A DNA stretch of 64,000 bases from NCBI RefSeq assembly GCF_002573715.1, contig NZ_PDHM01000017.1:62001-126000 (forward strand), given 5' to 3'. The DNA comes from Paenibacillus sp. EZ-K15 (GTDB lineage: Bacteria > Bacillota > Bacilli > Paenibacillales > Paenibacillaceae). Positions 1,738-33,251 of the stretch are shown here, piece after piece. Positions within the stretch are counted from its first letter, which is position 1; every line of letters begins with the position of its first letter. The notes under the pieces are model-generated. The model was not told the origin of the DNA. It searched no databases and saw only the letters and a list, made by a program, of their open reading frames with translations. Made by a program: the position numbers and the translations under genes.

Positions 1738-2226
1738 TTATTCCTTAATCCGTCGAATGCCTCGCGCGATTTGTTCCCTCTCACATTCTTTCAGCGAATA
1801 TAGTACAGGTGCCATAGGAATGTCGAACTTCAGATGAGAATGAGGGATTTCCGTCAATAAAGTTCCAATGGGTTGTTGACTATTCTTACTACGTATAACA
1901 TTCCAGAAAATTCTGGACCTATTATCCTCGGTCCCCCATTTTTCAAGCGAGTTGCGAAATAGCAGACATTTCCCGATTACAAAATCATGCTCCTTGAGGG
2001 GTTCCGTTGTTTCGAAACCTGCATCTTCAAGGCTATCGAAGATTACGGGCATCAACTGGTCCAAATAAAGCCCATAGGCAGCATCCTCGATTTCACGAAA
2101 AGCGATCGTTAACTCATCAAGCATCGAATCGTATAGTGTTTTCCATACCGATTCGATATATTGATTACCTGCCCCGCAAATCTCCTCAATTGTCATGTCG
2201 TAACAGAATACTGGTTTTACAGTCAT
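1738..2226 (-). CDS. Hypothetical protein, 162 aa
   Basis: I do not recognise this family. The protein is acidic and soluble-looking, with no signal peptide or membrane segment. The start is well supported: AAGGAGGAGTATAT directly precedes the ATG. It stands alone between the amine oxidase operon (same strand, about 270 bases further down) and the divergent MerR-type regulator gene, and it has its own terminator at 1616-1643. The 150 bases between it and the MerR-type gene hold the promoters of both, so regulation by that neighbour is possible but not shown. Confidence 0.7.
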   Translation of the reverse strand: MTVKPVFCYDMTIEEICGAGNQYIESVWKTLYDSMLDELTIAFREIEDAAYGLYLDQLMPVIFDSLEDAGFETTEPLKEHDFVIGKCLLFRNSLEKWGTEDNRSRIFWNVIRSKNSQQPIGTLLTEIPHSHLKFDIPMAPVLYSLKECEREQIARGIRRIKE

Positions 2227-2377
2227 ATATACTCCTCCTTGAATTGGATTATCTCCATCTTATAACATGTAAGCCAATTGGAAGGTTAGAGGATAAATTT
2301 GAAGGAAATCAATAAATAATCCAGAATAACATTACAACTGTTTTAATGTTGTGCATTGTTCACGAAGGTGGGATAAC

Positions 2378-3076
2378 ATGGGCTTTCGACCAAAAAAACT
2401 GGCAGAAAAATACGGGTTAAGCAGCAGCACCCTGCGGAACTACGAAGCGAAGGGGCTGATACCTCCTGCAGTTCGATCTTCAAATGGATATCGTATGTAT
2501 ACCGAACGGCATGAAGCTTATCTGGCATGTATTCAAGCCATGGCTGCCGGATTCGGTATGGAAGTTACGAGCGAGGTAATGCATTGTCTTGAGCGAAATG
2601 AGTTGAATGACGCATTGTGGATCGTCAGGGATCGGGAGGTCATGCTGCATCGGGAAAAAGCAAGTTTAGATCAACTGGTGAGGGAGTTAAAATCGTATTC
2701 TGAAGGTAATCGAGATCACGATTTTAACCACCATTTCAGCATACAAGAGGTTTCAAGACGGACAGGGGCTCCTAAATCGGCAATCCGTTACTGGGAGCAA
2801 AGCGGCCTGTTTACGGCTAAGCGAGACCCTGATAACGATTACCGTCTTTATAATGAAGCGCATCTCTTTAAAATTAGGATGTTTCAGGTACTGCAGAGCG
2901 CTGTTTATTCCGAGGAAACCGTGAACTTAAAACAATCCATTGCACGCTTAGATCTAGAGAACATCGAGCATGCGATGAAGCTTTCTGAAAGTATCCAGGC
3001 TTACCTGCACAAAACGATCAAACTCCAGATGCGAGCGCACTATTTTCTATATCGCTTAATTAAAGACCCATTGTAG
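2378..3076 (+). CDS. Tandem MerR-type transcriptional regulator
   Basis: The protein (232 residues from the ATG at 2378) carries two MerR-type winged-helix domains. The first (about 3-70) has KLAEKYGLSSSTLRNYEAKGL followed by NGYRMYT. The second (about 119-188) has EVSRRTGAPKSAIRYWEQSG followed by DNDYRLYN. A predicted helical stretch (about 85-112) joins them and another helical tail closes the protein. Canonical MerR proteins have one such domain plus a dimerisation coiled coil and an effector domain; no recognisable effector domain is left here. An upstream GTG at 2351 is possible, but GAAGGTGGGA sits 4-5 bases before the ATG at 2378, which I therefore prefer. It is transcribed alone and divergently from the 1738-2226 gene. 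Confidence 0.8.
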   Translation: MGFRPKKLAEKYGLSSSTLRNYEAKGLIPPAVRSSNGYRMYTERHEAYLACIQAMAAGFGMEVTSEVMHCLERNELNDALWIVRDREVMLHREKASLDQLVRELKSYSEGNRDHDFNHHFSIQEVSRRTGAPKSAIRYWEQSGLFTAKRDPDNDYRLYNEAHLFKIRMFQVLQSAVYSEETVNLKQSIARLDLENIEHAMKLSESIQAYLHKTIKLQMRAHYFLYRLIKDPL

Positions 3077-3111
3077 TGTATAGATTAATAAACATCGACC
3101 GATTCAAAAGA

Positions 3112-3157
3112 AGCCATGGTAACAGTAGGATTATCGCTGTGACCATGGCTTTTATTT
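3112..3157 (+). terminator. Terminator after the tandem MerR gene
   Basis: The arms AGCCATGGT and GACCATGGCT form a hairpin followed by TTTTATTTATT on the plus strand, 35 bases after the stop of the regulator gene. Confidence 0.75.
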
Positions 3158-3197
3158 ATTTGGAACTATAAGTTATCCGTATCATGCCACGAGGAGT

Positions 3198-3384
3198 ATT
3201 TGTCATGAAAGACCTTGGTCCAAGTCCGAAATCAACGATAAACAAGCCGTTTGTTTTCGAATTCTCGCCAGTACATGCCGACAAGCTCCAGATAGGAATA
3301 GTTCGCCTCCTGCCATCCTTGGCGGACCTGATCCAGCCACCACTGCATCACTTTTATCCGGTTTTCGAACGCTTTCTCTCTGCC
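3198..3384 (-). pseudogene. Remnant of a second DUF4855 gene (internal fragment plus 3' flank)
   Basis: Bases 3268-3384 match 8535-8651 of the intact DUF4855 gene over 117 bases without gaps and with about seven mismatches. Bases 3198-3266 match 6764-6832, the region just downstream of that same gene, with a few mismatches and one single-base indel. The two blocks that are 1.7 kb apart at the intact locus are fused here. The remnant therefore looks like a duplicated gene end that lost most of its 3' half. Its orientation is the same as the intact gene. It sits directly beyond the GH27 stop codon at 3412. Open frames through it are short and it cannot make a functional protein. Confidence 0.8.
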
Positions 3385-3411
3385 TTCGAATGTTGCGGAC
3401 ACTTTGGTTAT

Positions 3412-6399
3412 TTATTTCGCTTTGTCAGCAATAAATTGGGCGTCCGCCCAACCGGCGTGATCATTGCCATTTCCATCGCCGGCATCGGTAACGATTAACT
3501 TCAATTGTTTCCTTCCACTAACATCAACATCAATAAACTTGGCCGGAGTGTCTCTTTTCATCATCCCGCTGTCAAACAATTTTTCCCCGTCGGCCCATAC
3601 TTGAAAAGCTACGGATCCTACATCGTTTCTGTTTGCCTCCTGGTCAAGGCCTACGTAACATTGAAAGCGATTATACCCTTTCCCGGCAATGTCGTAAATG
3701 ATTTCTGAATTAGCATGCGTTCCAATTCCTCTATCATAAGTGACAACGCCCGAATCACTTAACAATTCAATCGGGTTCCCTTCGACACTAGCATCTCGAT
3801 GAATCGTTCCCCAGCCAGTCGTCGCGTAAATCCACGGAATGTCGCTTAAATACAATTGTGGAGTGATATTAAAATGAATCTTATACGTTTGCGTTACGGA
3901 TCCATCTGCCGAGGTGACGGTAATCACGGTGGTACCCGGAAGTTGTTCCGCCGGTGAAATATCTACCTTGACATCGTTATTGGCCGGAATGACTTCCACC
4001 GTAGGTACATCCGATATCGTGCCTTCCAAAAATGTCATGTAGTAATCTTTGGTTACGTGATCAAAACTTGAGAAGGATTCCCCGTTGATCTTGATGTCAT
4101 CTACTAACACCTCTTTCAACAACTTAGCTCCAGCCCAATCAGCATGAGTCGCACCATTGCCTACCCCACCATCCATTACTTCCAACGTAAGAATATCGAC
4201 ATCGGAAACATCAACATTGACATGCTGGGAATCCGCGTTATCTTTCATTACACCGCTATCATAGAGCTTTTTCCCATCTCCCCACACTTGAAAGATGACA
4301 GAGCCCCCCTGAGTTTCAACATCTAGTCCAATATCCGAGATAAACCTTGAAAAGTTCTTACCGATATAAAATGAAGCTTTAGAATATGCATGAACACCCA
4401 ACCCCTTTTCATACCCTTTACCGTTCAGGGTGATCATATTGCCATCTCCTTGACCACTCCCGCCGACACTTGTATCCCTTTCAGCCGGACCCCAGCCGTT
4501 TGAAACGTTGCCGAAAAATGGCATGTCGCTGATAAATGTATCTTCCGCCTTAGGGGCGGACGGGACTTGCACGGAATATTCTGAGCGTACATGCCCCTGA
4601 ATTTCCCCACCAGAAACGAACATGGCATCCGCTGTAAGATGACTCCAGCCAGCTCCAGCGTCTTGAGGCACCGTCACCTTCCAACTCACCTTAACGGAAT
4701 TGTTTTTGCCTTCAGGTGGCATGGTTTGAAATGTGGTGTCCGAAGCGGGGATTACTGTCCATCCTTCCGGTACATTTAGATTGAGATCCAGGTTATGAAC
4801 AGCCACTCTTCCATAATTGGTCAGCGTTGTTATGATCGTTGTGGTTTCACCTGGGGCTATAACAGAAGGACCGTCAAACGATATACCAACAGCCGCAGGC
4901 ACCCCGTTCGGTGTTCCCGGTGTAACACGGTAGGTGACCGCTGAAAATGGTTCAACATCGGAAACGATTTTGCTGGCATAACTCATTGTTTGGCCAGTCC
5001 AATCATCTTCAGCCAAATAAACTGAAGCAGGTTTAAAACCTAATTTTTCCGGTTCAGCACTGATTGTTGTCGCTATAGTAGTCCGGTTGACCAATGTCAT
5101 CATTTTGCTTCCGTCAGACAGCGATTTGACCCAAATTTCTTTGCCGTCATTATCGATAACTCGCTTAAATCCGTCAGTTGAAACCTCATTTCTCGTTTCC
5201 GGACTGACGCGATACATCATAATTCCGTGAGACGGAACAGAAGCGCTGATTTTGTCTGTGGTCGTAGTCGTTTCATGTGCCCAGAGATTCCGAACCGTAT
5301 AGGTCTTATTGTCGTCAGAGGTTGGTATGCCCAATTGACTTAGACTTATCTCCATATTTGACGCACCATCGGTTGAGTTGAAGAACAACACGGCTTTGTC
5401 CCCATTGGCCATCGGTTTCAACAATACATAAGTACCGTCGTTTGGCATCTTGATGGGACGTCCCTGTATTCCGATCGGATCCTGATTCACCGCAGTCACT
5501 TCGCGATTGGCGTAAATATCTAAAATTTCTTGGGAGGCATTCAGTAAATCGGTACCCGAGAGTAATGGCGCAGCCATTATGGACCAAAGACTAAATTCGG
5601 TACGATATTCTTCTAAACTCATGCCCCCGTTACCGACTTCCAGCATATCGGGATCATTCCAATAACCCGGACCAGCATACGGATACAGTTCAACAGTCTT
5701 AAGGAAATGGACTAACATCCGTAGATACGTATCACTAATATCACCTGTTGTCCGCCACAGATTGCCCACCTGCTTGCCCCATATCCACGGATCATCGGTT
5801 CCCCCAACGCTCATACTGAAAACAATGTCCCGTCCTGTATCCGCAAGCGCATCGCGCATCTTCTCATAGCGTTCCTTTACCGGTCGACCCTGAGGGTCTC
5901 CACAATTATCATACTTTAAATAGTCGATTCCCCACTCGGCAAAACTTTGGGCATCTATCTTTTCATGGTCGAGACTCCCCGGATAATTGGCACAAGTCGT
6001 GGTACCTGCGCTTGCGTAAATACCAATTTTCAGACCGAGAGAGTGAACATAATCAGCGACTTCCTTCATCCCGTTTGGAAACTTCTCCGGATCGGGAACT
6101 AAATTGCCGTTTGCATCGCGTTGATTAAGCATCCAACAATCATCGATGTTGACGTACTGATAGCCCGCTTCTTTCATCCCGGAATCAACGATCTTTTTCG
6201 CCGTTTTCTTCACGAGATCGGCATTAACGTCACAATGAAAGGCGTTCCAACCATTCCAGCCCATCGGAGGCGTTTTTGCAAGCCCATTGTCAAGCGCATA
6301 GGCTTGCGAATGATTGAACCCTAACAAACCAATGACCAGTGTAAACAAAAACAAAAGCGTTACCAACGACTTTTGAAACCTAGGTTTGTTCATTGACAT
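3412..6399 (-). CDS. Secreted GH27 alpha-galactosidase with NEW3 and two NPCBM modules
   Basis: The product (995 residues) hydrolyses terminal alpha-galactosides or related alpha-linked sugars outside the cell. A signal peptide ends near AYA35. The GH27 barrel follows: PPMGWNGWN near 45, YVNIDDCW near 82, the nucleophile Asp164 in YLKYDNC, the likely acid/base Asp220 in WRTTGD, and WNDPDML near 248. After the beta-sandwich come a NEW3-type alpha-galactosidase-associated domain (about 510-615), an NPCBM domain (about 630-760), a linker Ig-like segment, and a second NPCBM domain (about 850-990). I chose the ATG at 6399 because AAAGGA lies five bases upstream; an in-frame start at 6474 would place extra residues before the signal peptide. 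It is the last gene of the locus. Confidence 0.92.
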   Translation of the reverse strand: MSMNKPRFQKSLVTLLFLFTLVIGLLGFNHSQAYALDNGLAKTPPMGWNGWNAFHCDVNADLVKKTAKKIVDSGMKEAGYQYVNIDDCWMLNQRDANGNLVPDPEKFPNGMKEVADYVHSLGLKIGIYASAGTTTCANYPGSLDHEKIDAQSFAEWGIDYLKYDNCGDPQGRPVKERYEKMRDALADTGRDIVFSMSVGGTDDPWIWGKQVGNLWRTTGDISDTYLRMLVHFLKTVELYPYAGPGYWNDPDMLEVGNGGMSLEEYRTEFSLWSIMAAPLLSGTDLLNASQEILDIYANREVTAVNQDPIGIQGRPIKMPNDGTYVLLKPMANGDKAVLFFNSTDGASNMEISLSQLGIPTSDDNKTYTVRNLWAHETTTTTDKISASVPSHGIMMYRVSPETRNEVSTDGFKRVIDNDGKEIWVKSLSDGSKMMTLVNRTTIATTISAEPEKLGFKPASVYLAEDDWTGQTMSYASKIVSDVEPFSAVTYRVTPGTPNGVPAAVGISFDGPSVIAPGETTTIITTLTNYGRVAVHNLDLNLNVPEGWTVIPASDTTFQTMPPEGKNNSVKVSWKVTVPQDAGAGWSHLTADAMFVSGGEIQGHVRSEYSVQVPSAPKAEDTFISDMPFFGNVSNGWGPAERDTSVGGSGQGDGNMITLNGKGYEKGLGVHAYSKASFYIGKNFSRFISDIGLDVETQGGSVIFQVWGDGKKLYDSGVMKDNADSQHVNVDVSDVDILTLEVMDGGVGNGATHADWAGAKLLKEVLVDDIKINGESFSSFDHVTKDYYMTFLEGTISDVPTVEVIPANNDVKVDISPAEQLPGTTVITVTSADGSVTQTYKIHFNITPQLYLSDIPWIYATTGWGTIHRDASVEGNPIELLSDSGVVTYDRGIGTHANSEIIYDIAGKGYNRFQCYVGLDQEANRNDVGSVAFQVWADGEKLFDSGMMKRDTPAKFIDVDVSGRKQLKLIVTDAGDGNGNDHAGWADAQFIADKAK

Positions 6400-6445
6400 A
6401 TCATCCTTTCTTTTATTGTATTCTCGTATGGAACTCTCGATTTTT

Positions 6446-6458
6446 GATCCCTCCTTTC
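6446..6458 (-). promoter_or_regulatory. Shared leader motif GAAAGGAGGGATC upstream of the GH27 start
   Basis: On the minus strand GAAAGGAGGGATC lies about 47 bases before the GH27 start codon. A near-identical 13-mer (one mismatch) is at 9974-9986, upstream of the DUF4855 gene. Neither copy is followed by a start codon at normal spacing. The role is unknown; it may be a leader element common to the two secreted-enzyme genes. The rest of 6459-6652 shows no gene that I can support. Confidence 0.3.
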
Positions 6459-6652
6459 GCTGCATCCGGCACAAACCATTTGGAGAACACTTTCGTAACG
6501 GCCATGCTGAAAACGCTTCCGCTTGGACTTATGATAAAGGGGGACTTACAGGAGAGCAAGCAGCATAATTTGATGTACTGTACTATTTTTTTCGTATGCT
6601 ATATGAGACGTATTGTCCGTGAAAATCGCAAAAAAATAGAAAATGACACACG

Positions 6653-6685
6653 AAAAAAAGGCCATATCCGAACTGGACATGGCCT
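6653..6685 (-). terminator. Terminator after the DUF4855 gene
   Basis: AGGCCATGTCC and its near-complement GGATATGGCCT form a hairpin followed by seven T residues on the minus strand, about 170 bases downstream of the stop at 6858. Confidence 0.75.
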
Positions 6686-6763
6686 ATAAGAACCTATATC
6701 ATTCCCACGTTTCTTTTCTTCATACGTTGTATACCGCATGCTATTTGCATCACGCTGCAACAG

Positions 6764-6832
6764 AATTTGTCATGAAATGCCTTGGTCCAAGGCAGAAATC
6801 AACGAAAACAAGCCGTTTGTTATCGAATTCTG
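6764..6832. repeat. Second copy of the 3198-3266 sequence (3' flank of DUF4855 gene)
   Basis: The block ATTTGTCATGAAA ... CCTTGGTCCAAG ... CGAATTCT occurs here and at 3198-3266 with about 90 percent identity. It contains the palindrome CCTTGGTCCAAGG at this site. It lies between the DUF4855 stop codon and that gene's terminator, so it is 3' untranslated sequence of the intact gene. Confidence 0.75.
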
Positions 6833-6857
6833 CGCTTGCCCGAGAAATAATCATCAT

Positions 6858-9800
6858 TCACTGTGGCTTGTATTCAAATGTTAACTTCACGGGAGTCGAC
6901 ATACCTTCTATTGAGAGATAGGCATCGTTGGTTCCTTTTAGAAAACCGGTAAGCTTGATCGTGAATTGGAAACTTCCCGTTACTGTACTTGTCGTCTGGC
7001 CTTCATACCGAACTTTCCCTTTCGAATCGAGCACTTTCAAATTCACTTTGGACTGACTGCTTGCATCCATGACCAGACCATCAATCGTCAATTTTCCTGC
7101 GCTGACATCTGCCACAGCTCTTACGCCGTCGATCGGGGTTACCCCGTCGCCTCCCGCCAGGTTGTACACGCCAAACTCATAGAAGGAGTAACCATAATCC
7201 GTATTTCTTTCGAGCCCTTGAAATTTGACGTATCTGGCTTTGACCGGCTCAAAATGAACCGTTTCTTTTCCGTCACGTGCCGTAATCATTCCGTCATTGT
7301 CCTTGACCACGCTGATCCAGTTCTGCTTATCGTCAGATACAAGAAGTTTGTAGGTTTTAGCACGCGCAAATTCCCAGCTGATTCGTACGGTATCAAATTC
7401 CTTGGTTTCGCCAAGATCGACCTGGTACCAGCTATTATTCGTGTAATCACTGGCCCATCTTGTCGCTGGGAATCCATCTACTGCTTTTTCCGGTTGATAA
7501 TTCGGGCTGCCGCCTTCTACCGAAGAAGCTTCCGCCTTTTTATTTTGCGCCAAGTTTCCAATGAGGTAATAAACGTCTTCCTTCAGCGCGTTGTACGCCG
7601 TTTCTTTTATAACGCCATCTTTCAACAAAATATCAAGTTCCTCGTTAAATCCTTTCAGATATTTGTCAAACTGTGTCGCATCCGTTCCTTCGTAGCGTTT
7701 CATTAGCTCTAGATAATTGTTCAAAGAACGAGGCGCTTCGGCATTCGTAAATTGATTTTGTTCTACAAATCGGTTCACCAATGTTTTCATGCTGTCCGCG
7801 TTTGCACGGGCATCGATGATATAAGACGTTTTCTGCGACTTGCCGGCCGTTACGGTAATAACCAATTCATGTTTTCCGGGTGCACCCGACAGATTTATGG
7901 TTGTTCCAGCCGTATAAGGCTTGCCGTCAAACTGAGCCGTCACTTTCGTCACGCCATCGTCATCCTTTAACTGCCACGTAAACTGGAACGGCTCTGTTTC
8001 ATTTACCACGGCACCACTTTGAAGAGGTTGTCCATTTATTTGTACGGCTGCCTCCGGCGGAGCCGCATTATTGATTTCATATGTTCCATTCACATATTGA
8101 TACAACCAATCATACAAAATGCGATTGGAAGGATCTTGGTTGACCGCCGCATTGTAAACGGCATTATTCCCTTGATAATAAGCTCTGAATCCGTTTTGCA
8201 TCAAGCCGGTTTCAGCGCCGCTGTTCAAGTAGTCGATAAAACGCTCACGGAACACACCGTCAGTCAGCATCCGGTCATCAAACTCGACTTCATTGGACAT
8301 GCCGTATTGCTTCGCCAGGTTGGCGGCATCCTCCAGACGGTCGTAGCCCATATCCTCGAAGAAATAGTTTGGCTGGAAGGCAGCGTTGTCAAAGCCAACG
8401 TCCTTCCACATAAACGCTTTGTATGCCAAAGAATGCGGAATCCAGAAAAATTTCAGATCCATATCATGGACTTTGCCGCTTACTGCTTTAATCAAATCCG
8501 GGCCCGTATCGCTTGTGCTGATTTGTTCTTCCAGCCAGTACATGCCGACAAGCTCCAGATTGGAATAGTTCGCCTCCTGCCATCTTTGGCGGACCTGATC
8601 CAGCCACCACTGCATCGCTTTTATCCGGTTTTCTTGCGCTTTCTCTTTGCCGACAACCGAGTCTCTGAAGCTTTCGGATACCCCGTCACCGTCAACGTCA
8701 CCAAAGTCGTTTACGTATTCCCCCGGGTTCGGAATCATGAGCACAACCTTCATTTTATGATCAGGCTGATTCAGCTTGGATCCGACTTCCACTGTAGCCT
8801 CATTTAACTGCTGCATATCCCCTGCGGCTGCGAAGGTTTTATCCAAATACCAATTCCAGTCCTCCAGAATCGTTTGCCCGACACCGAAGTCACGGCCGGC
8901 AGGCGAAGCCAGTCCGAGATATAATATCCCGTCAAAAAACCAGTCGATAGGCTCGCCATCTTTATTTACATAACTGATATTAGGGATGATCCGTTCCTTG
9001 TTCCAATCACCCAGACCATTTGGATATTGTCCGTTATAAAGCAGTCCGAGATTGCGGATGCCTCCAGTGGCTTCTCCCGGGGCCATAAACTGCGGATGCT
9101 CGGCAGGGACCTTTACGGCCCCGTCAGCCTGCCCATCGGTGCCCCGAATTTCGATCTCATCAATATATGACCATTGTGTTGGATGCATCGTAAAAGTGAC
9201 TTTGACATAACGGGCATACGCCAGCTTGCCGTTCGGATTCCCGCCTTTGATTCCATCCCGGCTGCCGTCCCATTCAAAGATCTCCTGTCTTGGCGGTCCT
9301 TCCCCCCAGAGCAGTTGGGTGGCGTTATGGGACAACAGTCCCCAATTTTCTTTATCGTCGGAGACATACATGGATACCGTCAAAGGTACGAGGATCGAGT
9401 TGGTAGGATAATCTTGGAAAAAGTGTGCTGTAATCTTTCCGATTGATTTTTCCTCACCGAGATCAAAGACGACTTCCCGCGTTTTTCCACGTTGATGCCC
9501 TACCCATGCCGGGTCATTCATATCCAATGTGCCGTATTTTCCATCCGTAAGCTTGTACTCGCCGTCAGGACGCGACGTGTCTGGCTCCTCAGACCATTCA
9601 TAAGGAAGGCCGGCCGCAAGATTGCGGAATTGCGTCTCCTCCACTGCCGAAGATGCTGCCACTTGGTTTGGACTCGGAGCTGATCCTGCCTGTTCCGCTG
9701 CTGGTTCCCCAGCATCCGTCGGTAGATCTGGTACGAACTGTGGATTTCTTGCCTCATTTCCTTCCGGCTGGCCTGCATCGCCTGCCTGTGCAATCATCAC

Positions 9801-27948: not shown

Positions 27949-28305
27949 CTAATCGCATTTTTTAACTTCGCCACGATAATTCGCCATTCGGAAACTGGCT
28001 CCGCATCCACAAGAAGCTTTTGCATTGGGATTATTCATGGTGAAGCCGCCTAACATTCCGCTTTCTTCATAGTCAATGACAAGTCCTTCAATGAACTCAA
28101 CGCTATTAGCATGCACCAGGATGCGGAACTCTCCTTGGTTCAGGATGATATCTCTATTTCCTTGCAATTCATCCACGGTAAGCGTGTAAGATAGTCCGCT
28201 GCAGCCCCCTTCTTCAATACCTACCCTGAGAAACGAATTAGGAATGTTTTCGTTTGCTATGATTTCGGCTACTTTTCTTGATGCTGTTTCGGTGATCTGA
28301 ATCAT
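27949..28305 (-). CDS. A-type iron-sulfur carrier (IscA/ErpA/SufA family)
   Basis: The 118-residue protein carries the three ligand cysteines of the family: Cys35 in EEGGCSGLSY, and Cys99 and Cys101 in ASCGCGASF. It delivers Fe-S clusters to apo-proteins in the cytoplasm. It is the first gene of a two-gene unit with the HesB-like gene and faces the SufR-like regulator gene across a 160-base promoter region. Confidence 0.92.
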   Translation of the reverse strand: MIQITETASRKVAEIIANENIPNSFLRVGIEEGGCSGLSYTLTVDELQGNRDIILNQGEFRILVHANSVEFIEGLVIDYEESGMLGGFTMNNPNAKASCGCGASFRMANYRGEVKKCD

Positions 28306-28426: not shown

Positions 28427-28466
28427 ACGTTAGCGTAGATTGAATGGTTCCAATGGAGGTATGCAA

Positions 28467-29117
28467 ATGAGTCGAAATCAAAGTAAAAAGGATGCCTCCA
28501 CAAGGACACGGAGAGCAATCATCGATCAGCTAAAAGAGCATGGTAGAATGGACGTTTTAGCACTCTCCTCCCACTTTTCTCTTTCAGGAATGGCGATTCG
28601 TCAACATTTGAGTGCGCTATTAGAAGAAGGATTGGTTACATACGAAGAAGAACCTCGTCCCATGGGCCGACCAACCAAACTATGGAGACTAACACCGGCA
28701 GCGGATCGTTTTTTTCCTAGCGGTTATTCGGAGTTATCACGCAGTCTAATCCATTCATTGAAAGAGGCATTCGGGAACGAAGGAATGGATAAACTACTGA
28801 CTGTCCGAAATAAGAACATGCAAGAACAATATATGAAGTACATTGGCGATACTTCTGATGTGATAGAAAGGCTGGAAAAACTGGCGGAAATTCGAACAAA
28901 TGAGGGCTATATGGCTGAGATCAAGGAAGAAGACGATAAGAGTCTTTTGTTTATTGAAAAGCATTGTCCGATTTGTGAAGCAGCCGCTGCATGTACTGGT
29001 TTATGTAAGAACGAATTGCAATTATTTCAACATGTTCTTGGAAATGATGTTACTGTCGAACGGATTGAGTACATTCTTTCGGGTGGAAGAAGCTGCATTT
29101 ACAGGGTTCGTAAATGA
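28467..29117 (+). CDS. SufR-like Fe-S-dependent winged-helix regulator
   Basis: The 216-residue protein has an N-terminal winged HTH (RAIIDQLKEHGRMDVLALSSH, then AIRQHLSALLEEGLVTYEEE and GRPTKLWRL) and a C-terminal domain with clustered cysteines: Cys167, Cys170, Cys176, Cys180 and Cys210. This is the organisation of SufR/IscR-like DeoR-type repressors that bind an Fe-S cluster and control cluster biogenesis. The ATG at 28467 is chosen because GGAGGT ends six bases before it; the ATG at 28461 would be too close. It is divergent from the IscA-like and HesB-like genes, its probable targets. Confidence 0.85.
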   Translation: MSRNQSKKDASTRTRRAIIDQLKEHGRMDVLALSSHFSLSGMAIRQHLSALLEEGLVTYEEEPRPMGRPTKLWRLTPAADRFFPSGYSELSRSLIHSLKEAFGNEGMDKLLTVRNKNMQEQYMKYIGDTSDVIERLEKLAEIRTNEGYMAEIKEEDDKSLLFIEKHCPICEAAAACTGLCKNELQLFQHVLGNDVTVERIEYILSGGRSCIYRVRK

Positions 29118-29175
29118 AAAATCCCCTCCAAGTGATCTTAATGTGCTTGCACACGGTCTACTTAAAGGGGATCTT
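29117..29175. terminator. Terminator between sufR-like and L4-paralogue genes
   Basis: GATCCCC and GGGGATT form the base of a long hairpin. On the minus strand it is followed by TTTTT and would end the L4-paralogue transcript. It also lies right at the stop codon of the plus-strand SufR-like gene. Confidence 0.55.
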
Positions 29176-29262
29176 ATCCATTTGGAGATCGTTGTTCTGC
29201 GACTCTAAAAGTTCATATGGGCCTTGTACTTTTCTTCATCACTCCATTTCCAATTGTGCTTT

Positions 29263-29886
29263 TTAGTTATAGACTTCTGTAACTATATTTATAGCATCCT
29301 TAGCTATAATGAGCGTGTCACAATTAAGAATATCATATACATTCAACGAGTTGGCTTCAGTTGTCTGCACATCTGGAATGTTATTTGCACTTTTATACAC
29401 GATGTGATCCACCTCAGGTGTTACAATTAGCACTTTCTTATTGGCATGAAGAGCTTTAAGCATCGCGACGATACCTTTTGTCCTGTAGCTTTCAAGCTTA
29501 ATATGGTCAACTACAATGAGTTCATCATCTTGTACTTTGGCGGATAAAGCTGATTTGATCGCAAGACGTTTAACCTTTTTATTGAGACGATATCCATATT
29601 CACGAGGTTTGGGACCGAACGCAATACCTCCGTGACGCCAGTGCGGCATACGAATGGAACCCGCTCGTGATCTATTAATTTTATTTTGTTTATAGGGTTT
29701 TCTACCTCCACCTCTAACTTCGCCACGAGTTAAAGTCGAGTGTGTTCCACTGCGTTTGTTCGCAAGATGGTTTACAACAGCTTCATGCAGTACCGATTCG
29801 TTGGGGACAATCCCGAAGATGGATTCTTCAAGTTCGATTTCACCCGTAATGTTACCTTCCATATTATAAATAGAAACGATTAACAA
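29263..29886 (-). CDS. Diverged stand-alone paralogue of ribosomal protein L4 (uL4)
   Basis: The 207-residue protein aligns end to end with bacterial L4: IYNMEGNITGEIELEESIFG, then EVRGGGRKPYKQ, GSIRMPHWRHGG, FGPKPREYGYRLNKK, RLAIKSALSAKV and a C-terminal IIAKDAINIVTEV. Canonical L4 reads KPW(K/R)QKGTGRARQGSIRSPQW in the loop that reaches the nascent-peptide tunnel; here the tip is NKINRSRAGSIRMPHW. So the Lys and two Gly of KGTGRAR are replaced (Asn68, Lys69, Asn71). The gene is not in an S10 operon: no rpl or rps gene is near. The start is a TTG at 29886 with AGGAGG nine bases upstream. It is probably a second, condition-specific L4 that can be built into ribosomes. Confidence 0.88.
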   Translation of the reverse strand: MLIVSIYNMEGNITGEIELEESIFGIVPNESVLHEAVVNHLANKRSGTHSTLTRGEVRGGGRKPYKQNKINRSRAGSIRMPHWRHGGIAFGPKPREYGYRLNKKVKRLAIKSALSAKVQDDELIVVDHIKLESYRTKGIVAMLKALHANKKVLIVTPEVDHIVYKSANNIPDVQTTEANSLNVYDILNCDTLIIAKDAINIVTEVYN

Positions 29887-29926
29887 ACTTAGCTACCTCC
29901 TGATTATCATCGTAAGAGTGAACTTA

Positions 29927-29954
29927 ATTATAGGAACGGACAGCTCAAAAGTAA
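29927..29954 (-). promoter_or_regulatory. Putative promoter of the L4-paralogue gene
   Basis: TATAAT (29927-29932, minus strand) is a perfect -10 box about 40 bases before the start codon. The best -35 box, TTACTT at 29949-29954 (16-base spacer), is poor, as expected for a regulated promoter. Confidence 0.4.
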
Positions 29955-30142
29955 GCAGAAATAATGATTACAATCGAAGTATCTACGATAACATCCATCA
30001 CTTCGACCCCCTCTTGATGCAAATTTAAATGGCTAACAGCCAGTGTGTCTCTTACATCTAAACGATAGCAGATTGAAAATTCATGATCTATATACAAAAC
30101 GATGCTGTAGTATTTTATATTTGTTAGCTTAAGCTCCATCAC
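29945..30142 (-). CDS. Small ORF of 65 codons, doubtful
   Basis: It reads MMELKLTNIKYYSIVLYIDH and continues with a protein-like composition and a hydrophobic end (VIVDTSIVIIISAYF). I do not recognise it. No ribosome binding site precedes the start, so it may be a gene remnant. It lies between the CD3324-family gene's terminator and the L4-paralogue promoter. Confidence 0.3.
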   Translation of the reverse strand: MMELKLTNIKYYSIVLYIDHEFSICYRLDVRDTLAVSHLNLHQEGVEVMDVIVDTSIVIIISAYF

Positions 30143-30183
30143 ATGTAAGTGGCTGCTCTGAATTCCCGATTTCTTCTTTGCGT

Positions 30184-30235
30184 TAAAAAATCCCTTCTAG
30201 TAACAGTGCTCGATTTTAGCACGCTTGAAGGGATT
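30184..30235 (-). terminator. Terminator after the CD3324-family gene
   Basis: AATCCCTTCAAG and CTAGAAGGGATT pair and are followed by TTTTTT on the minus strand, a few bases after the stop at 30245. A smaller inner stem (GTGCTAAAATCGAGCAC) is included. Confidence 0.85.
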
Positions 30236-30244
30236 AGTAGGTAA

Positions 30245-30508
30245 TTATTTCTGATATATTATTTTTCTGATAGCATAGGTTGATAAAAAGAATGATTCTG
30301 CGAGTTCCTCGACCGAAGCGCCAGCTAAATATGCATTCAGAATATCATTATTTCTTTTGTTAATCTCTTTTCGTGCGCCAGACAGCTCTCCCCAGACTTT
30401 ATGTTCATTTTTTCTAGCGGGTATATAGAGGTATTCGCCTTGTATATATTCCTGCAATTTTTCAACTAGTTCCTCCGGCAAGACGACAGTAGCATTCATA
30501 TATCTCAC
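30245..30508 (-). CDS. CD3324-family HTH protein
   Basis: The 87-residue protein has the CD3324 pattern: NATVVLPEELVEKLQEYIQG, EYLYIPAR, a K.WGE.SG. segment and a C-terminal HTH (ASVEELAESFFLSTYAIRKI). The family is small, common in Firmicutes, and has no established function; the HTH suggests DNA binding. The start is taken as the GTG at 30508, because MRYMNA aligns with the family's MSYKNA; AAGGAG lies ten bases upstream. It follows the Cfr-like gene on the same strand with a 24-codon ORF in between, so it is probably read from the same transcript. Confidence 0.8.
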   Translation of the reverse strand: MRYMNATVVLPEELVEKLQEYIQGEYLYIPARKNEHKVWGELSGARKEINKRNNDILNAYLAGASVEELAESFFLSTYAIRKIIYQK

Positions 30509-30567
30509 GAACGACTCACTCCTTGAAATTATAATTCAAGTAGCAAAGCCAGTTTAAATTTTGTTGG

Positions 30568-30642
30568 CTACTCCATGCAAATACTCAAAACCGGCTCTGC
30601 ATGGAGAATCACATGTGTTATCGTTGTATTTTTAAGGGACAT
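30568..30642 (-). CDS. 24-codon ORF between the Cfr-like and CD3324-family genes
   Basis: It encodes MSLKNTTITHVILHAEPVLS plus ICME. A very strong site, CAGGGGGGAAATACA, precedes the ATG, so it is likely translated. Its 3' half contains a 9-bp inverted repeat (CTCCATGCA / TGCATGGAG, 30571-30606). It is placed like a leader peptide for the CD3324-family gene, but no pairing with that gene's ribosome binding site is visible. Confidence 0.5.
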   Translation of the reverse strand: MSLKNTTITHVILHAEPVLSICME

Positions 30643-30674
30643 TGTATTTCCCCCCTGTTCAGTTGGTCGAGTTA

Positions 30675-31715
30675 TTAAATTTTCCCGTTTGATCCATATA
30701 GTTGGCCGCATGCTGCGTTGATGTCTGATCCAAATTGGGTCCTCACGGTGACATGGATTCCCTTGGACTTCAAGATTTTAAGGAACATATTGATGCTGTT
30801 CTGATCCGACTCTACAAAACTTTGTGATGTGGCATCAGTGGAATTGTAAGGGATTAGATTGACATGATATAAATGTTCCCATGACCCTCTGCCACGCAAC
30901 AAATCTGCAACAGCTTCAGCATGTTTAGTTGAATCGTTGATCCCCCTTAGCAGGATATAAGCAATGTAGACCTTTCGCTTCGTTTGTTGAATATGCTCAT
31001 CCAACACGGTCAAAACTTCTTCCAATGGAAAATGATGGTTAATTGGCATTAACTCGCTTCGCTGATCATTAAACGGTGAATGTAGGGAGAAGGTTAAATT
31101 AATCTGCGGAAATTCCTTCGTCAACTTTTTTACTCCAGGTAATATACCTATTGTGGAAACCGTAATTCTTCGATGTCCTAATCCGAAATGTTTAGGATCC
31201 GTAAGCAGATGCAACGCATCAAATACATATGGGTTTGCAAGTGCCTCCCCCATCCCCATAAAGGACACACTGTCCAAGGGATAGTTATTCAAAGTAAAGT
31301 AAAGAAGTTGATCCGTTATTTCATCCGTTGTAAGATTCCTTTTCAAACCAAGTGTTCCCGTAGCACAAAATGTACAACCAAATCCGCAACCACACTGCGA
31401 AGAGATACAATAGGATTCCCATCCGGTTTTATAACTTAACCTAACGGACTCAATGAATTCATCGCCAGGGATGGCAAACAGCATTTTACTAACTTGATTG
31501 GATTTCTGCTCCATTTTTGGTGTAATGCTTAACACATTGTTTCCAAGCTCTTTGATTAATTCATTTCTTAATTGCTTAGGCAAGTTGTTCATTGCTTCAA
31601 AAGATCCAATCTTGTTCTTGAAGATTGCCTCAGTTATTTGCGAATATCTATAATTCGGTTGCTTTAGATCCGATAAGATCTTACGAATTTTCTCATACTT
31701 AGATAAATGCTTCAT
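30675..31715 (-). CDS. Cfr-like 23S rRNA (adenine2503-C8) methyltransferase
   Basis: The 346-residue radical-SAM enzyme has the cluster motif CGFGCTFC (Cys110, Cys114, Cys117) inside GWESYCISSQCGCGFGCTFC, plus Cys103 and the C-terminal catalytic Cys336 in AACGQLYG. The sequence follows Cfr far more closely than the housekeeping RlmN: ISSQCGC, NLT.DEITDQ.LYF, SFMGMGEALANP, LTFSLHSP, HVNLIPYN. Cfr adds a methyl to C8 of A2503 in the peptidyl transferase centre and gives resistance to phenicols, lincosamides, oxazolidinones, pleuromutilins and streptogramin A. The ATG has AAAGGGAG seven bases upstream. A leader peptide and a terminator precede it, suggesting drug-induced expression. Activity of this homologue is not proven by sequence. 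Confidence 0.85.
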   Translation of the reverse strand: MKHLSKYEKIRKILSDLKQPNYRYSQITEAIFKNKIGSFEAMNNLPKQLRNELIKELGNNVLSITPKMEQKSNQVSKMLFAIPGDEFIESVRLSYKTGWESYCISSQCGCGFGCTFCATGTLGLKRNLTTDEITDQLLYFTLNNYPLDSVSFMGMGEALANPYVFDALHLLTDPKHFGLGHRRITVSTIGILPGVKKLTKEFPQINLTFSLHSPFNDQRSELMPINHHFPLEEVLTVLDEHIQQTKRKVYIAYILLRGINDSTKHAEAVADLLRGRGSWEHLYHVNLIPYNSTDATSQSFVESDQNSINMFLKILKSKGIHVTVRTQFGSDINAACGQLYGSNGKI

Positions 31716-31720
31716 ATCTA

Positions 31721-31738
31721 TCTCCCTTTAAACGGAGA
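31721..31738 (-). promoter_or_regulatory. Hairpin covering the ribosome binding site of the Cfr-like gene
   Basis: On the minus strand TCTCC (31734-31738) can pair with GGAGA (31721-31725), which includes the ribosome binding site. The stem is only five base pairs, so the effect on translation is uncertain. Confidence 0.35.
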
Positions 31739-31740
31739 AA

Positions 31741-31778
31741 ACGCAAAAAAGCACCAGCTTACCGGTGCTTTTTTGCGT
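31741..31778 (-). terminator. Transcription attenuator directly upstream of the Cfr-like gene
   Basis: A perfect 15-bp inverted repeat (ACGCAAAAAAGCACC / GGTGCTTTTTTGCGT, 8-base loop). On the minus strand it is a GC stem followed by six T, ending about 25 bases before the start codon of the Cfr-like gene and after the leader ORF. No gene ends here on either strand, so it is best explained as an attenuator of the downstream gene. Its symmetry would let it act in both directions. Confidence 0.8.
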
Positions 31779-31829
31779 ACATTAACCTAACTATACCTAT
31801 ACAAAAATAAGAGACTCCCTATAAATAAG

Positions 31830-31955
31830 TCACGAACTGTATATATGCATAGAAGGATAAAGTTCCGGTATCTGATTTGTTGTTTTGTGAACCTGATCAA
31901 ACCTCGCCTTAAATGACAGGTTCACATTTACATCTACAATTTCAGAAGCAGTCAT
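31830..31955 (-). CDS. Leader peptide of the Cfr-like gene (41 aa)
   Basis: The ORF reads MTASEIVDVNVNLSFKARFD, then QVHKTTNQIPELYPSMHIYSS and a TGA. GGGAGGG lies eight bases before the ATG, a strong site. It is the first ORF of a transcript that starts at the promoter at 32002-32030 and then meets the terminator at 31741-31778. Placement and size fit a regulatory leader whose stalled translation would prevent termination. I do not recognise a known stalling motif, and no antiterminator pairing is obvious by eye. Confidence 0.65.
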   Translation of the reverse strand: MTASEIVDVNVNLSFKARFDQVHKTTNQIPELYPSMHIYSS

Positions 31956-32001
31956 CACTTTATCCCTCCCATTCAATTCATCATTGTTATTACATGAAAA
32001 A

Positions 32002-32030
32002 ATTTAACACAAGTTATATATTTCGGTCAA
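32002..32030 (-). promoter_or_regulatory. Promoter of the leader peptide / Cfr-like transcript
   Basis: TTGACC (32025-32030), 17 bases, TTAAAT (32002-32007) on the minus strand. Transcription would begin near 31995, about 40 bases before the leader ORF. Confidence 0.6.
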
Positions 32031-32060
32031 GGCGGGCTCAAAAATAGGATTCAACGACCT

Positions 32061-32422
32061 TTACTCATTTTTTATATGGACTACTAAAGATTCGAACTCC
32101 GGAATGTCCTTCTTTCGATACAAGTCATATCCAAGCTCTATCGTTTCGGCAAGTTGATTGCGAAATGCTTGAGAAACTTCCGGTCTTTCGAGATACATCT
32201 TAATGGAGTACATAATATTAGATCCATACGTTCTCCCGCTTGGCTAAATTCTTCAGTTCCTGAATCAGCTTGGGGATTCATATTCATGGACTCAACAGCT
32301 TCTTTCGTTACTATCTCTTCTGGGATGCGTGGATTACTTCGTTCACTTGCGCTGCAGCCGACACTAAATGCAATGAACAACATCATAGTGATGAGGCCAG
32401 AATTTTTCACAAAACTCTTCAA
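32061..32422 (-). pseudogene. Frameshifted small lipoprotein gene
   Basis: The frame from 32422 gives a lipoprotein signal (KSFVKNSGLITMMLFIAFSVGC, Cys23) and a polar stretch ending AGERMDL. After about 32222 the frame changes: the sensible continuation is GSNIMYSIKMYLERPEVSQA followed by FRNQLAETIELGYDLYRKKD and a stop at 32061. The joined product would be about 119 residues. The first frame alone runs to 32138 with an unlikely tail. A single-base frameshift is the simplest reading; a sequencing error cannot be excluded. I do not recognise the family. Confidence 0.6.
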
Positions 32423-32540
32423 GCCTAGTTCCTCCTCAAACTTTATATTGGTAGTTTACCAGGCTGAGGTTTATTTTTCTAAAAAGTCCATTATCTTCTT
32501 TAGATTAGGATGTAGCATGTTACCCATTCCTTCATTCGCT

Positions 32541-33251
32541 TTATTTTTGACCTGTAAAGTCATCTTGGATCTTGTTCAGTCGTTCAAGATGCGGTTTTAA
32601 CTGCCGCAGCAATTCCGCTTTATATGACTCTATTTGATCCTCGAAAAACATGTGATGTGCGTCGTCCTTAAACGACATAATCGTTTGGTTTAACGCACGG
32701 AGCTCAGTCGCCAGCGAGCGCAAGGTTTCTCTGGTCTTGGCGTCGATTGTTTTAGGATTAGACTTCCAATACGAATAGCTTATTTGGTATAACGGTCGCC
32801 ATGTCCTTGCCTGAAAAGCGAGAATAAACATGTCCTGCTGGTTATCCGTTGTCATTGCCGTATTATTAACTGAAAGCTTTGGAACCGCGTTGTTGGTGAA
32901 GGTATCGCTAAATTCAATGATCGTTAATAGCTGCTCATCGATGTCTTCCGCTTGGGTCTTCGCCTTATCGATCCATTGCCGTATCTTGACAGGATCTACA
33001 TTTTCCTTCGACTCGCTGATCGCCATCAGCGTATCAGCAAGCGGAATCGTTTCAAAAGCGTGCTTCATTAAATAGGCAAATGCCGAGTCGTTCTTCAGCT
33101 GATACAGGGAATGGAGGCTGTTGTATCTAACAGATGCCTGGTTTTCCAAATGCCTGTACACCGCAACGTTTATAAAAATGATAATAATAAGTATTAGTGC
33201 GTTGATCTTTATGTGCTTGGGCAAAGTGTACTTCCTTTCTGATACATTCAT
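32541..33251 (-). CDS. Hypothetical membrane-anchored protein
   Basis: The product (236 residues from the ATG at 33251; a TTG at 33272 would add seven) has one N-terminal TM helix (INALILIIIIFINVAVY), and the rest is a helical extracytoplasmic domain rich in charged residues. I do not recognise the family. No convincing ribosome binding site is seen at either start, which lowers confidence in the N terminus. It lies upstream of the frameshifted lipoprotein gene on the same strand and the two may have formed an operon. The 280 bases upstream of it hold no supported gene. Confidence 0.6.
   Translation of the reverse strand: MNVSERKYTLPKHIKINALILIIIIFINVAVYRHLENQASVRYNSLHSLYQLKNDSAFAYLMKHAFETIPLADTLMAISESKENVDPVKIRQWIDKAKTQAEDIDEQLLTIIEFSDTFTNNAVPKLSVNNTAMTTDNQQDMFILAFQARTWRPLYQISYSYWKSNPKTIDAKTRETLRSLATELRALNQTIMSFKDDAHHMFFEDQIESYKAELLRQLKPHLERLNKIQDDFTGQK

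Follow-up and report, generated by a model that had tools for sequence, protein, structure and literature searches.

The closest described relatives of the control region analysed here are the leaders of two ABCF genes. The VmlR leader of Bacillus subtilis carries an upstream open reading frame (uORF) within an anti-antiterminator, an antiterminator, an intrinsic terminator and a hairpin around the Shine-Dalgarno (SD) sequence, and it responds to drugs that should trap ribosomes as they start translation, with retapamulin and lincomycin reported to do so at start codons (PMC9226507). The CplR leader of Clostridioides difficile uses uORF-based attenuation of both transcription and translation and is induced by the same two drugs (PMC10201436). 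Cfr defeats several drug classes at once, pleuromutilins and lincosamides among its substrates, and its switching-on is little worked out; uORF stalling with RNA rearrangement has already been proposed upstream of the pSCFS1 copy (PMC8752094). Here we describe cfr and its neighbours in a 64,000-nt stretch of the 7.26-Mb genome of the soil bacterium Paenibacillus sp. EZ-K15 (contig NZ_PDHM01000017.1, positions 62,001 to 126,000), referred to as the window, in which the minus strand reads, 5' to 3', cfr promoter, leader and terminator, cfr, a gene of the CD3324 family, and a gene for a second ribosomal protein L4 that we term L4*. The best explanation of our results, and one we hold to be very probable, is that cfr is governed by ribosome-mediated transcription attenuation like that of VmlR and CplR, while an extension of this model, in which L4* would replace the resident protein in ribosomes, is less certain.

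Features of the VmlR and CplR leaders predicted in the window are a uORF with its own SD, an anti-antiterminator that contains this SD, and an antiterminator overlapping the terminator, the latter transient only. Unlike the window leader of 41 codons, VmlR has the far shorter uORF MIN and governs an ABCF protein (PMC9226507), and CplR has the uORF MRI before an ABCF gene, with no ribosomal protein gene mentioned in the available text (PMC10201436). The staphylococcal plasmid cfr resembles the window gene in its enzyme (about 58% identical) and in its layout of leader ORF and antiterminator, although its leader belongs to clade 3 and that of the window to another clade. The pSCFS1 proposal differs in that it invokes exposure of the ribosome binding site and start-codon choice, no antiterminator being named in the parts of the text available (PMC8752094). 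Cfr in Paenibacillus, Brevibacillus and Cohnella has likewise been reported (PMC11047308), in a text that is without the words leader, upstream or ribosomal protein. Among the open-licence papers listed by our searches, several of the lists being capped, neither a cfr-linked L4 nor an antiterminator for cfr was met, which is weak evidence of absence. With the pSCFS1 proposal the idea that cfr is inducible is already published; the antiterminator, its conservation and its exclusive partner were not met in print.

Layout of the cfr leader

The elements at and before cfr are as follows.

32002-32030, minus strand: promoter, TTGACC (32030-32025), 17-nt spacer and TTAAAT (32007-32002) with a preceding TG extension
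31958-31970, minus strand: leader SD region GGGAGGGATAAAG, with GGGAGGG inside, also the partner of the antiterminator segment and so the anti-antiterminator (folding)
31830-31955, minus strand: 41-codon leader ORF MTASEIVDVNVNLSFKARFDQVHKTTNQIPELYPSMHIYSS, ATG at 31955 and stop at 31830 (ORF call, conservation, frame test)
31887-31925, minus strand: hairpin within the leader ORF, GTGAACCTG / CAGGTTCAC (folding, comparison)
31855-31871, minus strand: antiterminator segment ATACCGGAACTTTATCC (folding, pairing comparison)
31741-31778, minus strand: intrinsic terminator with a perfect 15-bp outer stem, arms 31778-31764 and 31755-31741 (sequence, folding)
31721-31738, minus strand: hairpin TCTCC..GGAGA with the cfr SD in it (folding)
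30675-31715, minus strand: Cfr 23S ribosomal RNA (rRNA) (adenine2503-C8) methyltransferase, ATG at 31715 and stop at 30675 (TIGR04432, cysteines)

A sequence-only reading of this DNA had interpreted the promoter, the 41-codon leader with its SD, the 15-bp hairpin and the start of a Cfr-like methyltransferase as an attenuator, and all of these lie on the minus strand where it placed them. Judged by family model and cysteines the enzyme is a true Cfr, for which methylation of A2503 at C8 is predicted: it scores 638.2 bits against the Cfr equivalog TIGR04432 (cut-off 550) and 272.9 bits against the RlmN model TIGR00048 (below the cut-off of 290), the radical SAM CX3CX2C and other conserved cysteines are present, and C103, 108, 110, 114, 117 and 336 align with 105, 110, 112, 116, 119 and 338 of the Staphylococcus aureus pMSA16 Cfr. 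Further homologues in the same genome (39% and 33% identity) fall below the Cfr cut-off.

Taken alone, the promoter match is at chance level, with 12 promoter-like sites in 29000-33000 against 11.2 expected, but 10 of 10 clade-1 loci have TTGAC[CG] and a TG-extended -10 at a distance of 64-75 nt upstream of the leader ATG. The fold of 31990-31700 has z = -6.4, with none of 200 shuffles equally stable, and the terminator hairpin is visible by eye throughout the close clade. A terminator scan did not list the hairpin at 31778-31741, whose U-run sits inside the stem.

Antiterminator pairing and the position of the ribosome

For comparison, 29 loci of about 5-9 kb were fetched and others were added from a genome-wide scan with the L4* loop and from a search of further genomes. 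The 51 loci with an upstream region gave 40 distinct sequences, which with the window and two plasmid records and less L072 (cfr directly after L4* and no cfr leader) make 42 upstream regions in five sequence groups plus cfr(B). Also left out of the counts were L063 (a cfr fragment), L064 (same genome as L066), L086 (Thermoleophilia, 43% identity) and identical upstream regions. Gene identity, conservation, the exclusive pairings and the dependence on ribosome position were all computed here.

The leader sequence UACCGG..CUUU (within 31871-31855) looks like the 3' arm of the terminator and pairs with its 5' arm. The sequence-only reading had seen no antiterminator pairing by eye, yet UACCGG, UAUCGG or UUGCCGG of the leader finds its complement in CCGGUA, CCGAUA or CCGGUAA of the terminator, so that the pairing is kept through changed letters, the first combination occurring in 10 loci (2 with G-U). 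Across clades 1 and 3 and pMSA16 the segment pairs the 5' arm at 6-8 of 8 positions in 16 of 17 loci, and at 4 in a fixed register in the remaining one, L059. In the window the antiterminator segment also pairs with the leader SD region, GGGAUAAAGU with AACUUUAUCC, and this excludes pairing with the terminator 5' arm.

Transcripts ending just after the terminator 5' arm were folded with a ribosome footprint masked, which reached from 15 nt upstream to 16 nt downstream of the first P-codon base. Among the 17 terminator-type leaders, pMSA16 included, the antiterminator probability is 0.00-0.43 with no ribosome and 0.87-1.00 with a ribosome at codons 1-3, and it falls to 0.00-0.16 with the ribosome at the stop codon in 16 of them (0.56 in L059). 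For the window the values are 0.00 with no ribosome, 0.98 at codon 1, 0.95 at codon 4, 0.18 at codon 5 and at most 0.07 at codons 6-10, whereas pMSA16, L061 and L101 are predicted to stay ON as far as codon 9 (0.94-1.00). When only the 5' part of the leader (to codon 6) is shuffled, the no-ribosome means rise to 0.55-1.00 and the off state is lost; a switch of about native size is given by 27 of 680 shuffles.

We propose the following model for the control of this gene. With no drug present, AUACCGGAACUUUAUCC would be paired with the leader SD region or covered by translating ribosomes, and the terminator would form. A ribosome trapped by a drug at the first leader codons would cover the leader SD and so free AUACCGGAACUUUAUCC, which could then pair with the emerging 5' arm of the terminator, allowing RNA polymerase to read into cfr and, we infer, on into CD3324. 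As the window switch is predicted to need a ribosome at codons 1-4, no special stalling peptide would be needed for drugs that trap at the start. Candidate triggers are retapamulin, lincomycin and streptogramin A, which also traps starting ribosomes, and all three classes are Cfr substrates; it is this fit between start trapping by Cfr-substrate drugs and the predicted ON position that leads to attenuation by inference. The cfr attenuator is well supported by comparison and prediction, and the antiterminator also fits the S. aureus plasmid cfr, so that the model can be put to a direct test in a gene of medical relevance.

Conservation of the leader reading frame

Comparison of the leader in homologous loci, codons against silent changes, had been suggested with the sequence-only reading. 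A leader ORF over the conserved core is called in 41 of the 42 cfr upstream regions, from Paenibacillus, Brevibacillus, Cohnella and the two plasmid records, the sole exception being L062, whose SD contains an N. The loss of the leader that the sequence-only reading had named as its refutation is therefore not seen. The peptides are MTASEIVDVNVNLSF..IPELYPSMH in clade 1, MFEVVNVHVNRSLSVGTVHDQTKRMPEHYPSIDRCT in clade 2a, MKIEVADDCVNRF and similar in clade 2b, and MLTVFRILYGKN in clade 3, the last type being found also before the S. aureus pMSA16 cfr (MLTVFRILFGEN) and the Enterococcus faecium cfr(B) (MLTVFRILFGKN). The start MLTVFRIL is common to both of these and to 5 of 6 Paenibacillaceae clade-3 loci; the sixth, L101, has MVTVFRIL. 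In the E. faecium plasmid record (L108) only 9 nt separate the stop of the leader from the start of cfr(B) downstream, with no terminator between.

The ratio of nonsynonymous to synonymous differences (pN/pS) is lowest in frame in all four clades, at 0.50, 0.51, 0.71 and 0.39 for clades 1, 2a, 2b and 3 (10, 15, 6 and 8 distinct leaders, clade 3 including the plasmid ones), against 0.91, 0.98, 0.90 and 1.34 in the +1 frame and 1.50, 1.16, 0.73 and 1.04 in the +2 frame. The excess is slight in clade 2b (0.71 vs 0.73), and we read the whole as modest coding constraint, barely present in that clade, from which translation of the leader is predicted. Constraint is stronger over the N-terminal codons 2-14 of clade 3 with the plasmid leaders, where pN/pS is 0.22 in frame versus 0.68 and 0.75 off frame, and four leaders (L037, L059, L060 and L101) run in another reading frame in their later part yet retain the antiterminator segment. 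Because of these two observations the start of the leader looks to be kept as peptide and its later segment as RNA. Together, leader conservation, the antiterminator and folding that depends on ribosome position support the attenuator interpretation of the sequence-only reading.

The well-kept N-terminal codons could also be read as those of an ErmCL-like peptide, in which the drug would be sensed through a peptide-specific arrest inside the leader and not through trapping at the start codon; the ON state persisting to codon 9 in pMSA16, L061 and L101 would fit this, as would [DE]-x(0-1)-[IV]-V-[DN], which stands near the start of the cfr leaders of clades 1-2 at a position like that of a motif in the L4* leaders described below. 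We nevertheless regard such arrest as somewhat unlikely, since the ON positions of the window, codons 1-4, are early for a long arrest peptide and the leader N-termini differ between clades. The presence of a similar motif at a like place does suggest, short of proof, that the cfr and L4* leaders may have a common sensor.

A second ribosomal protein L4 linked to cfr

The elements downstream of cfr are as follows.

30568-30642, minus strand: small ORF MSLKNTTITHVILHAEPVLSICME ahead of CD3324 (motif [IV]TH[VAD].[FL]HA)
30245-30508, minus strand: CD3324-family protein with a Mor-like helix-turn-helix (NF040785, Pfam Mor)
30040-30120, minus strand: conserved, imperfectly palindromic block, candidate promoter or operator, ends approximate (comparison of related loci)
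29945-29998, minus strand: leader ORF MDVIVDTSIVIIISAYF ahead of L4* (comparison)
29263-29886, minus strand: L4* with loop PYKQNKINRSRAGS (family models, tree, loop comparison)

L4*, which lies beyond the coordinates of the sequence-only reading (these ended at cfr), scores 234.3 bits against TIGR03953 (cut-off 130.1), has 3j3v_E as its best solved relative (E 1.3e-62) and is 50% identical to the canonical L4 encoded on another contig of the same genome. Of 61 genomes sampled across the phylum, 60 have one L4 gene, and only the window genome has two. Among 100 Paenibacillus genomes, 27 have a Cfr above cut-off and one further genome (G062) has Cfr in two pieces; a second L4 or a piece of one is found in 16, all among the 28 with cfr sequence and in 0 of the 72 others (Fisher p 2e-11), or, if G062 with its split gene is placed among the genomes lacking cfr, in 15 of 27 versus 1 of 73 (p 1e-9), both p values ignoring the relatedness of the genomes. 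One genome, G019 (L043, L045, L063), holds two full Cfr genes and a third fragment, and in Paenibacillus sp. DMB20 (L064/L066) cfr is in two frames with L4* intact, where a sequencing error is possible.

The genome-wide scan with the L4* loop returned 22 loci, 21 of them L4*-type (including some of the broken genus copies noted below), in Paenibacillus, Brevibacillus, Cohnella, a strain labelled Bacillus sp. and bacterium MS4. Cfr lies within the locus in 18 of the 21 and CD3324 in 20; for the three cfr-less L4* loci and for G147, where cfr is about 850 kb away, a full Cfr is present elsewhere in the genome in 4 of 4 cases, and G128, G170, G177, G285, G354 and the L072 genome have a cfr above cut-off close to L4*. 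The loop motif occurs in 20 of 394 family genomes and in 2 of 398 class genomes, these two being the window's own and one from another family.

The canonical tunnel-loop motif QKGTGRAR is absent from L4*, in which QNKI[ND] stands in place of QKGTG (canonical KGTG being residues 68-71). Of 41 copy-reads, with some genomes represented twice, 39 show the rewritten loop KPYKQNKI[DN][RK]SRA and two are fragments that lack this region; PW[RK]QKGTGRAR is found in 29 of 30 phylum L4 loci (the best-scoring of the 61 genomes), the 30th being unmatched by the pattern. We take this loop to be the one that lines the exit tunnel and exactly the one in which resistance changes in L4 fall. Changes in L4 have been tied to macrolide, oxazolidinone and chloramphenicol resistance (PMC3212830, PMC4036669). 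The L4 of the Thermoleophilia locus L086 resembles L4* in part of its loop (62% over the loop query, 43% overall), and no Cfr was found in its 2.1-Mb, perhaps incomplete, genome.

L4* forms a single clade across genera with 100/100 support on a long stem, and it has probably moved between hosts, judging by its occurrence in several families and by its setting in L072. In that locus (1862-9736) the order is CD3324, L4* and cfr, cfr last, in a setting like an integrative element; the flanking genes, to judge from their sequences, are presumably relaxase-like and serine-recombinase-like.

Each of the neighbours also has a short ORF ahead of it. That before CD3324 shows its motif in 25 of 30 distinct regions, with pN/pS of 0.42 vs 0.61 and 1.49. 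The L4* leader ORF, M-[DN]-x-[IT]-V-[ND] (mostly MDAIVN or MDVIVN), is called in 20 of 25 regions, a count that includes MGDAIVN of L072 (a one-codon shift), and two of the other five show the leader by eye; over codons 2-7 its pN/pS is 0.38 in frame against 0.81 and 0.36 off frame.

As an extension of the model, L4* would replace the canonical L4 in new ribosomes under drug stress, altering the wall of the exit tunnel and complementing A2503 methylation. Two results count against this extension: of the 16 copies in the genus 11 are intact and 5 are broken or fragments, which makes L4* dispensable in some genomes, and no clear ribosome-dependent SD release is predicted for the L4* leaders (19 of the 20 listed were folded, and exposure rose by at most 0.22, in L042 and L084). 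We do not propose translational attenuation for L4*. The broken copies would suit a paralog that is neutral or decaying and merely travels with cfr. This we consider unlikely, given a single well-supported clade that spans genera on a long stem, a rewritten loop kept in nearly all copies, a conserved start of the L4* leader ORF, and the presence of cfr in every genome where the two genes are not adjacent.

The cfr-linked second L4 is the novel part of the locus, its function being proposed here from sequence. Antibiotic producers resemble it in using an altered or duplicated ribosomal protein as a resistance factor, rplD being among the flagged genes, but no cfr link and no leader control are described in the available text of those reports (PMC6763770, PMC9290621). 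Tentatively, and with rather less confidence than for the cfr switch, cfr, CD3324 and L4* may form an antibiotic-inducible cassette for ribosome remodelling, each gene behind its own conserved leader ORF. If so, a jammed ribosome would trigger rRNA methylation and also the exchange of a tunnel protein in newly made ribosomes, and protection could be wider than that of Cfr alone, reaching for example streptogramin B or macrolides, the tunnel-binding partners. Reported L4 resistance consists of mutations of one essential gene, whereas L4* would be an evolved, regulated spare; an inducible ribosomal protein dedicated to resistance would, in a non-producer, amount to a kind of resistance that is new, and it raises the question of whether bacteria swap a ribosomal protein on demand against drugs.

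Assessment of the attenuation model

Several results weigh against attenuation of cfr as proposed. On full-length RNA at equilibrium the window terminator has a probability of 1.00 with and without the ribosome, and the antiterminator persists only until about 18 nt past the point where the GCACC arm begins, so the proposed switch depends on kinetics and would have to act co-transcriptionally. An equilibrium switch is predicted in pMSA16 (0.77 to 0.00), L101 (0.80 to 0.00) and L059 (0.62 to 0.06) and in none of the remaining 14 of 17 loci on full-length RNA, and the 17 are related loci from three sequence groups and not independent cases. When leaders and downstream regions are swapped between clades, own pairs are not consistently favoured, the CCGG core being self-complementary, and clade-3 leaders pair with clade-1 downstream regions better than with their own (-20.9 vs -16.3). 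The cfr SD of the window is predicted to be mostly paired, its free fraction being 0.25 whether or not a ribosome occupies leader codon 1, while the ON state of VmlR is predicted to open the SD hairpin too; since the cfr hairpin is predicted to stay shut in the induced state, the locus would work like VmlR without being a full copy of it. Finally, of the five clade-2 loci folded out of 24, two are predicted to release the SD clearly, two partially and one not at all.

These clade-2 cfr leaders look to be under translational control, because the leader segment GCCGG[AG]G pairs the anti-SD sequence, at 7-9 of 9 positions in 24 of 24 loci, and no U-tailed terminator was seen directly before cfr; a ribosome near codon 8 raises the predicted SD exposure from 0.07 to 0.51 in L055 and from 0.25 to 0.85 in L077. 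Erm-type translational attenuation, by which a stalled ribosome frees the cfr SD instead of blocking termination, draws on these leaders and on the SD hairpin, but as an account of cfr control it is decidedly improbable, since SD exposure in the 10 clade-1 loci, window included, barely changes (0.25-0.26 without and 0.25-0.29 with a ribosome at codon 1) and a strong terminator is present. Many clade-2 loci (L045, L048, L049, L053, L078 and L083 among them) have extra elements about 265-565 nt upstream of cfr, ahead of the cfr leader, with a terminator-like hairpin pattern in 11 of 24 and a start-stop ATGTAA (ATGTAATATT) in 12 of 24, possibly a second attenuator in series.

CD3324 and the neighbouring genes

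The CD3324-family protein scores 113.8 bits against NF040785 (cut-off 65) and 22.1 bits against Pfam Mor, just below the cut-off of 24.9; three more paralogs (L144, L145, L146; 40-47% identical) are present in the genome. An intrinsic-terminator-like hairpin follows the gene at about 30235-30185, seen by eye and absent from the terminator scan list. The block at 30120-30040, an imperfect palindrome around CTACAG, is strongly kept across genera 82-113 bp before the L4* leader, and the one other genomic site within 3 mismatches lies in a hairpin beside an assembly gap. The hairpin after CD3324 and the conserved block before its leader suggest that L4* is a transcription unit of its own.

The L4* leader of the window starts 57 nt closer to its gene than does that of the other genome of the same species, with a peptide of 17 versus 11 residues. 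The ending TSIAV of one L4* leader resembles ErmAL, a likeness on which we do not rely. The 64-kb window gave no family in an Rfam search at the gathering threshold, and neither transfer RNA nor transfer-messenger RNA with ARAGORN. Past L4* lie a regulator matching a cyanobacterial SufR model below cut-off (28440-29117, plus strand) and an iron-sulfur assembly accessory protein (27949-28305, minus strand), which may be linked by function to Cfr, itself an iron-sulfur enzyme, or may be there by chance.

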